A stretch of 35,741 bases of DNA from a virus. Within the stretch, counting starts at the first letter, position 1, and every line of letters begins with the position of its first letter. Made by a program: the position numbers and the translations under genes. The DNA is taken from positions 1 through 35,741 of the IMG/VR virus record IMGVR_UViG_3300031841_002721; one strand, written 5' to 3'. Of this stretch, positions 824 through 12,938 are shown one piece after another. The notes beneath the pieces are model-generated. The model made no database searches and was not told where the DNA came from. It worked only from the letters and a program-made list of their open reading frames with translations.

Positions 824-992
824 CTTTTCTCAATTCCTGCTCGAATAATTCCTGTTCAGCGTCGATTTCTTCGATAGTGTCTTTGATTTTCACTTCATGC
901 TGAGCCTTTTGCTTTGCTTTTCTCTCTGACTTGGCCCAAATAAATAAGATGCCGCTAAGAGCTGCAAAAAATGCTGTTATTTTAGCCCACAT
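747..992 (-). CDS. i-spanin-like (Rz-type) inner-membrane protein
   Basis: An 81-residue protein with one N-terminal membrane segment (about residues 5-20) followed by a long, highly charged coiled-coil region rich in Lys, Glu and Gln. That is the classic i-spanin design: anchored in the inner membrane with a periplasmic coiled coil that meets the lipoprotein partner. Its start overlaps the stop of the holin-like gene (TAATG), and its 3' end overlaps the lipoprotein gene out of frame. The membrane helix is close to the N-terminus and the coil contains few prolines. The family is identified by architecture and gene order. Confidence 0.7.
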   Translation of the reverse strand: MWAKITAFFAALSGILFIWAKSERKAKQKAQHEVKIKDTIEEIDAEQELFEQELRKDEQKRINQKVKNSQFASRRDRASRL

Positions 993-1192
993 TATTTATC
1001 ATCCAGGCTTGAATTGGTTAGCTCTCTTGTTTTCCAAGCTAAAGCGGCGAAAAATAAGAATACCCATTGGTAATACTGATCTAACACTTCTTTGAGATTA
1101 GCTTCATACATTACCATGAAAGCTAAAACGCTTGGAGCGATAGCAGTCAACCAGATAGTTTTTGATTTGAGCCTTTTTTTTAACCAACTCAT
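992..1192 (-). CDS. Holin-like small membrane protein
   Basis: A 66-residue protein (MSWLKKRLKSK...) with a basic N-terminus and two hydrophobic segments (about 14-30 and 42-55) separated by a short polar loop, then a charged tail. It sits between the endolysin and the spanins, where phage holins are usual. A holin would permeabilise the inner membrane at a timed moment and release the endolysin. I chose the ATG at 1192 over one two codons upstream because it overlaps the stop of the preceding 25-residue frame (TAATG). Size and topology fit a class II-like holin. No specific family is recognised. Confidence 0.65.
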   Translation of the reverse strand: MSWLKKRLKSKTIWLTAIAPSVLAFMVMYEANLKEVLDQYYQWVFLFFAALAWKTRELTNSSLDDK

Positions 1193-4239: not shown

Positions 4240-4664
4240 TACTCTCTCCATTGTTTTCTTGGTAGCTCACAGTGGTCAAAATGAGCTATTAGTTGTTTAA
4301 TATAATCTGAACACTCGTGAACACCCATTAAACTTGTTACGGCGGTTATTTCCATAGCTGCAAGCCTTTCTTGCTCCGTTAGTGGAAGCATCATTTTACG
4401 CCATAATTCAGCCTGTTCTGGCTGGTCTACTAGCAGTATAGGCATGCCGTGATAATACTTGCAGTGATTAACCAGCGTTTGCCTTGGTTGCCCTGTTTGA
4501 CCTGATACCATATTGTAAAACTGTTGAATCCATCGGTTTTGTATTTGCAACCTAGTTGCTTTAACTATCTTAGCTATCAAGTATTTTTCTTTTATAAATT
4601 CTTCTTGTATAAACTCTTGAAAGCTTTCAACAGCCTGTTTTGAGTTTATTGTGAAAGAGGTCAT
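4239..4664 (-). CDS. NinB-like phage recombination-associated protein
   Basis: A 141-residue protein with the pattern QNRW...F...HCKYYHGMPILLVDQPE...MMLPLTEQERLAAM...VTSLM...CSDYIKQLI.HF...ELP. I associate this pattern with a phage family found next to annealing proteins and NinG, often labelled NinB-like. Members of the wider NinB group are thought to bind single-stranded DNA and help annealing. The start overlaps the upstream stop (TAATG). The general context is secure; the exact family is a tentative reading. Confidence 0.5.
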   Translation of the reverse strand: MTSFTINSKQAVESFQEFIQEEFIKEKYLIAKIVKATRLQIQNRWIQQFYNMVSGQTGQPRQTLVNHCKYYHGMPILLVDQPEQAELWRKMMLPLTEQERLAAMEITAVTSLMGVHECSDYIKQLIAHFDHCELPRKQWRE

Positions 4665-9642: not shown

Positions 9643-9861
9643 CTATTCCTCTTTGTTTGAGGTTAAAGCCTTCAAATCCTGCATTGACCAAGGTTCGCAT
9701 TCATCAGCTATCAGCTTTAGAAACCCCTTATATTCTGCATTCTCTTTTTGTAGTTGCTCCACAGCATCAATTAAGGCTATTGAATTTCTTGCTTGCGGCC
9801 TCTCAAAAACTCTAATTTCTTCTTTGCATTCGGCAACTAGATTTTCATATTCATCACTCAT
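9643..9861 (-). CDS. Small coiled-coil protein (72 aa)
   Basis: A 72-residue acidic, helical protein with a coiled-coil middle (ALIDAVEQLQKENAEYKGFLKL). The end (ADECEPWSMQDLKALTSNKEE) is polar. It ends just before the replication-like gene, whose ribosome site overlaps its last codons. It could be a partner of that protein. Not recognised. Confidence 0.5.
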   Translation of the reverse strand: MSDEYENLVAECKEEIRVFERPQARNSIALIDAVEQLQKENAEYKGFLKLIADECEPWSMQDLKALTSNKEE

Positions 9862-12015: not shown

Positions 12016-12092
12016 TGGACCCCTCGGTAGGATTCGAACCTACAATCTTGACGTTCGTAGCGCCTTGCCTTAGTCCGTTTGGCCACGAGGGG
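12016..12092 (-). tRNA. tRNA-Arg (anticodon ACG)
   Basis: A 77-nt cloverleaf with encoded CCA. The acceptor CCCCTCG pairs with CGAGGGG, discriminator U, D stem GCC/GGC and T arm GTAGG TTCGAAT CCTAC. The anticodon loop CTACGAA gives anticodon ACG at 12056-12058; one stem pair (A-A at 27-43) is open. The UACGA loop is what host TadA deaminates to inosine, which would widen decoding to CGU, CGC and CGA. Confidence 0.92.
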
Positions 12093-12098
12093 TTTATT

Positions 12099-12175
12099 TG
12101 GTCCGGCTAGAAGGATTCGAACCCTCAACCTGCGCGGTAGAAACACGCTGCTCTAGTCCGTTGAGCTATAACCGG
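12099..12175 (-). tRNA. tRNA-Arg (anticodon TCT)
   Basis: A 77-nt cloverleaf with encoded CCA. The acceptor is CCGGTTA/TAGCCGG, the D stem GCTC/GAGC, the anticodon stem GCGTG/CGCGC with loop TTTCTAC, and the T arm GAGGG TTCGAAT CCTTC. The anticodon TCT reads AGA, a rare codon in many gammaproteobacteria but frequent in this AT-rich phage. Six bases separate it from the next tRNA. Confidence 0.93.
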
Positions 12176-12201
12176 AATTTATATCATCTATTTACTGAGG
12201 A

Positions 12202-12295
12202 AGTGTTTATATGAAGGGGAGCTGCCAACCACTTTAAGGCTAGCTGCCAAGGTTTCAAAAACCCGATTGCCGCAACTCCACCACATATAAACACT
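12202..12295 (-). other. RNA hairpin domain with 12-bp perfect terminal helix
   Basis: AGTGTTTATATG (12202-12213) is the exact inverse of CATATAAACACT (12284-12295). Inside, the minus strand pairs GGAGTTG with CAGCTCC (one G-U) and forms GGTTT-TTG-AAACC. TTGGCAGCT occurs twice inside the domain. It resembles no tRNA I can fold. Confidence 0.7.
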
Positions 12296-12312
12296 ATTTA
12301 GACTGCTTAAGG

Positions 12313-12485
12313 GAGCGGGTTACACTGGAATCGAACCAGCTGCTACAGGGTGAGTATCAAAGCGTTAATTAAGGTTAATTGCTGGCACTACCCAACGTTA
12401 TCTTATTCTTAATAATACTTTTCGTTCTCAGGGTTAGTAGCCCTTACAGCCCCAAACTCTACCTATTTGAGTTAATAACCCGCTC
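12313..12485 (-). other. tRNA-like domain with a ~100-nt insertion
   Basis: GAGCGGGTTAT (minus strand, from 12485) pairs with GTAACCCGCTC (to 12313) over 11 pairs. Next to the 5' strand is a D arm (ACTC AAATAGGTA GAGT, 12456-12472) with the GG of D loops. Before the 3' strand is a T arm (GCTGG TTCGATT CCAGT, 12324-12340). Between them TGGGG CTGTAA is followed by about 100 nt and then CCCTG, which would close a normal anticodon arm (Tyr GTA if the insertion were removed). Inserted sequence has its own helix GCTAC/GTAGC and a direct repeat CAGGGTNAGT (12346-12355, 12429-12438). No CCA is encoded, unlike the two tRNAs below. Confidence 0.6.
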
Positions 12486-12521
12486 TATTAAACAGTCTAT
12501 TGCTTTTCTGATAGGCGAAAA

Positions 12522-12666
12522 AAAAGCCTTACAGAGAAACCCTCAGTCGTACCCCAAAGTGCCAGTTCACGGTTTTTTAACTAAGGGCTAAGGATTTCTC
12601 TATAAAGCCTTCAAATCAAATTGTAATACGTGAACTAGTCTTTCTTTCTATAACTTCGCTGTACGA
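12522..12666 (-). other. 25-pair helix crossed by two helices (pseudoknot)
   Basis: 12588-12612 pairs with 12522-12546 over 25 uninterrupted positions, six of them G-U on the minus strand. The 41-base loop contains the partners of two upstream segments: 12564-12571 with 12629-12636 (8 perfect pairs, 10 with a G-U) and 12547-12552 with 12661-12666 (6 pairs). The long helix ends in TTTTTTTT, so it could also act as a terminator. Confidence 0.65.
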
Positions 12667-12677
12667 TCAGCCTTTTA

Positions 12678-12705
12678 ATTATACCTCATTCTTGGCTATT
12701 GTCTA
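12678..12705 (-). promoter_or_regulatory. Strong sigma70-like promoter for the ncRNA/tRNA unit
   Basis: Minus-strand TAGACA, 16 bases, TATAAT. The -35 lies in the last codons of the gene ending at 12696, and the predicted start is near 12671. This is one of the two best promoters in the window. Confidence 0.7.
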
Positions 12706-12938
12706 GCCTTCCTAAAAAAATTCTCATACTCAGCGCATCCGCTCACCATATCAATATGAGCACTATCAAATGGGTCGAAATTAATGCTATTAACTTTTTC
12801 AAAACGCCTAATAACCCTTAAACCATCAGTCTTAGATTCTGTTACACCGCCATACCAGCCGCATCTTCTGGCCTCATCAATAGCCTTAAGCATGGCCTTA
12901 ACATACCTTTCCCGTGATGACATAAACACGTTTACCAC
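12696..12938 (-). CDS. Unknown small protein (80 aa)
   Basis: An 80-residue protein, GTG start (MVNVFMSSRERYVKAMLKAIDEARRCGW...), with AAGGAG upstream. An N-terminal helix rich in Arg is followed by strands and FDPFDSAHIDMVSGCAEYENFFRKARQ. It is the last gene before the RNA region and its 3' end carries the -35 of that promoter. No motif recognised. Confidence 0.5.
   Translation of the reverse strand: MVNVFMSSRERYVKAMLKAIDEARRCGWYGGVTESKTDGLRVIRRFEKVNSINFDPFDSAHIDMVSGCAEYENFFRKARQ

Follow-up and report, generated by a model that had tools for sequence, protein, structure and literature searches.

In the DNA of a marine phage, a long RNA hairpin that ends in a run of U is crossed by a second helix, raising the question of whether the leader RNA encoded here folds into one large pseudoknot or chooses between two exclusive folds, one of which could stop transcription before the genes downstream. 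The stretch of DNA analyzed (referred to here as the window) is a whole 35.7-kb IMG/VR virus record (IMGVR_UViG_3300031841_002721, positions 1 to 35,741), and coordinates refer to the window unless another contig is named. Taken together, the evidence described below points to a putative promoter-proximal conditional terminator (attenuator) located before a tRNA/RNA array and the early genes, a reading to which we give about an even chance of being correct.

Genomic setting and predicted promoter of the leader element

Virtually all plausible genes in the window are encoded on the minus strand, in the order head-tail connector, capsid and tail genes, a large fibre-like protein, small genes, the leader region and early-type genes. 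The early-type genes include GIY-YIG-like and replication initiator-like genes as well as genes for PAPS reductase, Erf and SSB, some of these names being our reading of the translations. The head-tail connector shows 55% identity to that of another contig and its best annotated relative is Methylophilales phage MEP301; the phages that carry the leader form a marine podovirus-like group. Just downstream of the leader element, tRNA detection identified two tRNA-Arg genes, with anticodons UCU and ACG (12016..12175, minus strand). BLASTN of the leader region against annotated phages gave tRNA genes as top matches and BLASTN with the leader region of a relative gave nothing meaningful. The small protein encoded upstream of the leader, which was used as bait, returned no relatives.

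The element is preceded by a predicted σ70-like promoter (TAGACA-16 nt-TATAAT; 12678..12705, minus strand) that matches the consensus at 11 of 12 positions and would place the RNA start at about 12673-12671, approximately 5-7 nt ahead of the 5’ strand of the crossing helix (helix X, described below). The initial annotation had pointed out that a start site downstream of 12666 would remove the 5’ partner strands of this helix; the start predicted here, at about 12671, lies upstream of X. A 40-nt block around the promoter (12674-12713) shows 90% identity in a related contig, L006, with complete divergence beyond it, and exact matches to the promoter core were found in six phage records, including that of L006. 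Among 84,980 genomes of bacteria and archaea, none contained the promoter pattern.

In the stretches scanned, only two sites with 11 of 12 consensus matches were found, the one described above (12705-12678) and one at 15065-15037. The latter, a second strong promoter (TTGACA-17-TATTAT, minus strand), is located just after the fibre gene, is also present in L006 (8312-8340) and is the likely promoter of the small genes that precede the element. Between the U-run that ends the element and the early genes, the promoter scan of the window did not find another promoter as good, weaker ones being possible there. The tRNAs and the early genes would therefore need read-through of the element in order to be transcribed from the promoter upstream of it.

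Helix Y, its U-run and the crossing helix X

Helix Y is formed by a 5’ strand at 12588..12612 and a 3’ strand at 12522..12546, both of 25 nt and on the minus strand, and was defined by pairing and a shuffle test. Its 25 contiguous pairs and its 41-nt loop were found exactly as the initial annotation had described them; six of the pairs are G-U. Y is the longest minus-strand helix in the window when loops of up to 150 nt are allowed, the runner-up having 18 pairs, and in 100 dinucleotide shuffles of the whole window no helix was longer than 22 pairs. The base of Y carries the eight U that had been noted initially (12518..12525, minus strand), the first four of which pair within the base of the helix; this terminator-like end represents the predicted 3’ end of the RNA. 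A 15-nt stretch (GATTTGAAGGCTTTA) at the start of Y (12603-12617) is identical to a stretch at 9664-9678 (minus strand) inside a coding region, which may be chance.

Three colinear segments, with 6, 6 and 10 pairs, join the 3’ 25 nt of the Y loop to sequence upstream and together represent helix X (all coordinates on the minus strand). Segment 1 pairs UCGUAC (12661..12666) with GUACGA (12547..12552), which adjoins Y directly, so that linker L3 is 0 nt. Segment 2 pairs CGAAGU (12653..12658) with ACUUUG (12555..12560), and segment 3 pairs CUAGUUCACG (12629..12638) with CGUGAACUGG (12562..12571), its 10 pairs including one G-U and a perfect core of 8. Linker L1 comprises 16 nt (12613..12628) and linker L2 is CCCUUAGUUAAAAAAC (12572..12587). 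Segments 1 and 3 represent the two loop pairings proposed earlier, both of which are present; segment 2, located between them, had been missed.

The longest single run of X is unremarkable, as it was equalled in 10.6% of shuffles, and whole-duplex energies were used in place of this weak statistic to assess significance. As a three-segment duplex, X has an RNAduplex energy of -26.5 kcal/mol, compared to -14.8 +/- 2.9 kcal/mol for shuffled sequences, and none of 2000 shuffles matched it.

Versions of the element in related phages

L006 was chosen via 97% identity in a neighbouring virion protein, and a promoter-pattern search yielded five more phage records. Six distinct complete versions of the element were obtained from six IMG/VR phage contigs (i.e., the window, L006, L073, L074, L076 and L077), with the version in L075 being identical to that in L074; contig L072 ends inside the element. 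One record, IMGVR_UViG_3300032087_003094 (74,480 bases), carries two different leader copies, at 38150 and 73155, that are approximately 35.0 kb apart, and it therefore probably represents two related phage genomes joined in assembly.

All six versions have the nearly invariant promoter directly upstream and six to eight U directly downstream, at the base of Y, in the same orientation and with 134-156 nt from the -10 box to the end of Y. Y itself spans about 23-29 positions in each version and contains no more than one internal mismatch. Identity between versions, from the 5’ end to the U-run, is 0.48-0.75, compared to 0.46 for shuffled pairs. The strands of Y pair better with each other than with strands from other versions, which is clear except for L074 and L077, the two most similar versions.

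In four versions, designated type I (the window, L077, L074 together with the identical L075, and L073), X follows a common plan, with a segment 1 of 6-7 pairs, a middle block, a segment 3 of 10 pairs, an L2 of 14-22 nt and an L3 of 0-3 nt (0, 0, 1 and 3 nt). L1 measures 16, 0, 3 and 3 nt, the longest being that of the window. The energies of X in these versions are -26.5, -28.2, -31.0 and -31.3 kcal/mol, each of which beats 1000 of 1000 shuffles, and each type I 5’ segment pairs best with its own loop, above every cross-combination of versions. Moreover, compensatory changes on both sides were found at all 16 aligned pairs of X segments 1 and 3, and cross-pairing of X segments between versions amounts to 46% and 33%. 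The segments in this 16-pair count were picked for pairing, which makes their 100% own pairing a matter of construction, and the unbiased support for X comes from the shuffle test and the cross matrix. Outside X and Y, type I versions share the 5’ sequence GCUGA, and three of the four carry the L2 motif GCCYUAGUU; L2 in the three type I sequences other than the window is GCCUAGUUGU or GCCUUAGUUGU. In type II (L006 and L076), pairing of the upstream segment with the loop is not significant (p of 0.12 and 0.7), and the best alternative helix draws on the outer portion of the 5’ strand of Y itself, thereby overlapping Y.

Neither a promoter copy within 3 mismatches nor, in the stretches examined, the X/Y/U-run layout was found in 50 more distant phage records, and the element family therefore seems to be restricted to a close phage group. 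When 1.1 Mb of phage DNA was scanned with a descriptor (long helix, loop of 25-80 nt, T-run), this element was the only hit. That the layout arose by chance, or that it represents an inverted repeat at the DNA level without RNA function, is scarcely credible in view of the shuffle tests, the compensatory changes and the fixed order after the promoter in every version, with nothing to recommend it beyond the small number of sequences.

The length of Y could also suggest a role in RNA processing. RNase III classically acts on perfect duplexes longer than two turns, and in T7-like phages, RNase III sites are long hairpins between transcription units. Y, whose length stays within about 23-29 positions in each of the six versions, could be an RNase III site that parts upstream transcripts from the tRNA/RNA array, with X as a folding guide; cassettes A and B of this array (described below) also lie inside long stems. 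However, the element differs from the T7-like sites in its promoter just upstream, its U-run just downstream and its conserved crossing helix, and a processing signal would leave the constant place of the six to eight U, the close promoter of its own and the conservation of X all unexplained. We regard a processing signal as improbable.

Predicted competition between helices X and Y

The initial annotation offered two structures, an unusually large H-type pseudoknot or two mutually exclusive folds. Both crossing helices are backed by the relatives, through covariation in type I. However, A-form geometry indicates that L1 and L3 would be too short for complete X and complete Y (22-29 pairs) to coexist in an ordinary coaxial pseudoknot; these linkers would accommodate only part of X together with Y, or else helices packed side by side in an unusual way, and a partial pseudoknot of Y with the 10-pair X segment could be sterically feasible. 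In a nested energy model of nascent type I chains, X forms first, once its 3’ strand emerges. Y overtakes X at a nascent length of 148 out of 156 in the window and of 136 out of 141 in L077, and it never does so in L074 and L073. The constrained energies of the two states (Y minus X) are -7.4, -7.7, +3.6 and +0.6 kcal/mol in the type I versions. Because X and Y are similar in strength, X is complete first and the linkers are too short for coexistence, the switch is favoured over a full-size coaxial pseudoknot. In type II, the alternative helix overlaps Y, whereas X and Y of type I share no bases, so that their mutual exclusion would be steric and topological. Sequence and comparison together show the promoter, Y, the U-run and, in type I only, X, as well as the order and spacing of these parts and the fact that diverged relatives have kept them; the folding order and the near balance of X and Y come from the nested energy model.

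The promoter directly upstream and the stable hairpin followed by a U-tract in all six versions are consistent with an attenuator. As such, the element would represent the first ~155 nt of a transcript made from its own host-type promoter, leading into the array of tRNAs and structured RNAs and then into the early genes. Helix X would form as its 3’ strand emerges, closing a loop of ~40-57 nt that holds the 5’ strand of Y. The 3’ strand of Y would emerge tethered to the polymerase and could not wind fully around a strand held in the X-closed loop; since its 3’ end would still lie in the polymerase, Y would be unable to thread through this loop. With X formed, the polymerase would read through. 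If X were prevented or opened, or if the polymerase lingered at the U-run, Y could zip to the U-run and transcription would stop at about 12518; the choice between the two outcomes would presumably be regulated. The proposal made initially that one fold could stop transcription before the tRNA-like part is strengthened by the relatives as far as the terminator-like U-run is concerned, and the stop at 12518 itself is what we infer from this U-run. A more specific version of the attenuator, which seems rather unlikely to us, is that X acts as a topological antiterminator, which encloses the 5’ strand of the terminator without sharing bases with it, so that the tethered 3’ strand cannot wind up.

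The main rival of the attenuator is a stand-alone phage small RNA of ~155 nt that acts in trans, its target being, for instance, an RNA or a protein of the host or the phage, in which Y would be a very long intrinsic terminator and X and Y together a compact, possibly partly pseudoknotted body. A strong promoter of its own and a terminator-like end would suit such an RNA, as would the conservation of GCUGA (type I) and of the L2 motif (three of four type I versions) outside X and Y, the lack of sequence overlap between X and Y in type I and the feasibility of Y together with the 10-pair segment. However, the tRNAs and early genes downstream would then need another promoter, none as good having been found, and the close balance of X and Y and the near-zero linkers would be left unexplained. 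Moreover, a clear trans target was not found, the sole other match of at least 12 nt in the genome being the same-strand 15-mer mentioned above. Early ribosome-binding sites (AACUAAAGG) with which the L2 motif could pair in trans do exist, but no excess of them was shown. A small RNA of this type is possible, if doubtful.

Comparison with known RNA families

At the gathering threshold, Rfam models identified only the two tRNAs in the window and nothing for the element; at E values of up to 5, the element gave only a chance microRNA match, and GOLLD and ROOL were not matched in the region. A tmRNA was considered and rejected, as the only match (also at E values of up to 5) was a meaningless 8-bit fragment. 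In the relatives, Rfam searches identified one tRNA only, outside the element. Searches of the open-access literature found no description of the element, which is not proof of absence. GOLLD and ROOL are linked to phage tRNA regions. These RNAs, phage-associated ones included, resemble the element in being large and structured, and their structures have been described (PMC12286853); the element differs in its length of ~155 nt, its modular make-up and the lack of an Rfam match.

Attenuators and riboswitch-type leaders (trp and T-box types) share with the element a promoter-proximal leader, a hairpin with a U-tract, a competing helix (here predicted to form earlier) and a downstream operon. 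In contrast to these attenuators, the competing helix of type I has no bases in common with the terminator hairpin and would exclude it by closing a loop around that hairpin’s 5’ strand. Terminator stems are usually shorter than the about 23-29 positions found here, and the element is without a known sensor domain and evolves almost without sequence constraint. The alternative pairing of type II, which overlaps the 5’ strand of Y, corresponds to the classical overlap of terminator and antiterminator.

The put RNAs of phage HK022 are ~70 nt long with two stem-loops, show sequence similarity to each other and act on distant terminators, putL being located just downstream of PL (PMC9378689). Like put, the element is proximal to a phage early promoter and could favour read-through. 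As a structured, promoter-proximal part of the early transcript, it might bind RNA polymerase and make it resist distant terminators, for which a protein-free mechanism is conceivable. However, the element is ~155 nt long, holds a terminator and U-run of its own, has crossing helices and shows near-random identity between versions where put RNAs share sequence, and we consider a put-like function very improbable.

The downstream array of RNA cassettes

The region at 12016-12501 (minus strand), which was also found in L073, L074, L075 and L077, consists of RNA cassettes within conserved inverted-repeat arms (GACTGTTTAA/TTAAGCAGTC, AGTGTTTATA/TATAAACACT, GATGATATA/TATATCATC and GTTAGCATATCAACG/CGTTGATATGCTAAT). 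In cassette A (12294..12501, minus strand), the outer arms (GACUGUUUAA../..UUAAGCAGUC) enclose an RNA resembling tRNA-Tyr(GUA) whose anticodon loop carries a 92-nt insertion, and in cassette B (12205..12297, minus strand), the arms (AGUGUUUAUAUG../..CAUAUAAACACU) enclose a further fold. With introns allowed, ARAGORN placed the tRNA-Tyr(GUA) at 12315-12481 (minus strand) and the 92-nt insertion at position 38/39. At its start, the insertion repeats the anticodon arm almost exactly (GGGCUACUAACCC after GGGGCUGUAA), and an ordinary group I intron would be longer than this insertion; the tRNA-Tyr-like RNA with its insertion could represent an intron, a decoy or a decayed tRNA.

In L073, the arms of cassette A enclose another fold and those of cassette B enclose a tRNA-Leu-like RNA (884-998, minus strand; 39.9 bits against the tRNA model of Rfam). 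The anticodon loop of this RNA is enlarged and its variable arm is long, and ARAGORN missed it without introns. Related phages carry different cassette contents or lack some of them, as though exchange had taken place at the arms; for example, L075, with the same element as L074, has fewer cassettes. A conserved noncoding stretch that starts with ATGCCTATAGCTAAAGGCTTNAAACAGCA was found before the early genes in L006 (from about 10364), L074 (12488), L077 (471) and L076 (minus strand, 4344-4372), and only in this leader-bearing phage group.

Implications for the phage group

The array that the leader opens is a mosaic of tRNAs and other structured RNAs, exchanged between related phages. If the topological antiterminator is true, the switch would depend only on helix order, length and spacing, leaving the sequence free to diversify, and each phage version could answer only to its own trans-acting RNA, or to none. 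As the fold is kept while the sequence is almost free, sequence searches would miss such a switch. The element would also allow a clean test of whether the topology of an RNA is enough, with no bases in common between the helices, to choose between termination and read-through. If the switch reading is right, it would represent an undescribed RNA switch over the early transcription unit of a marine podovirus-like phage group.
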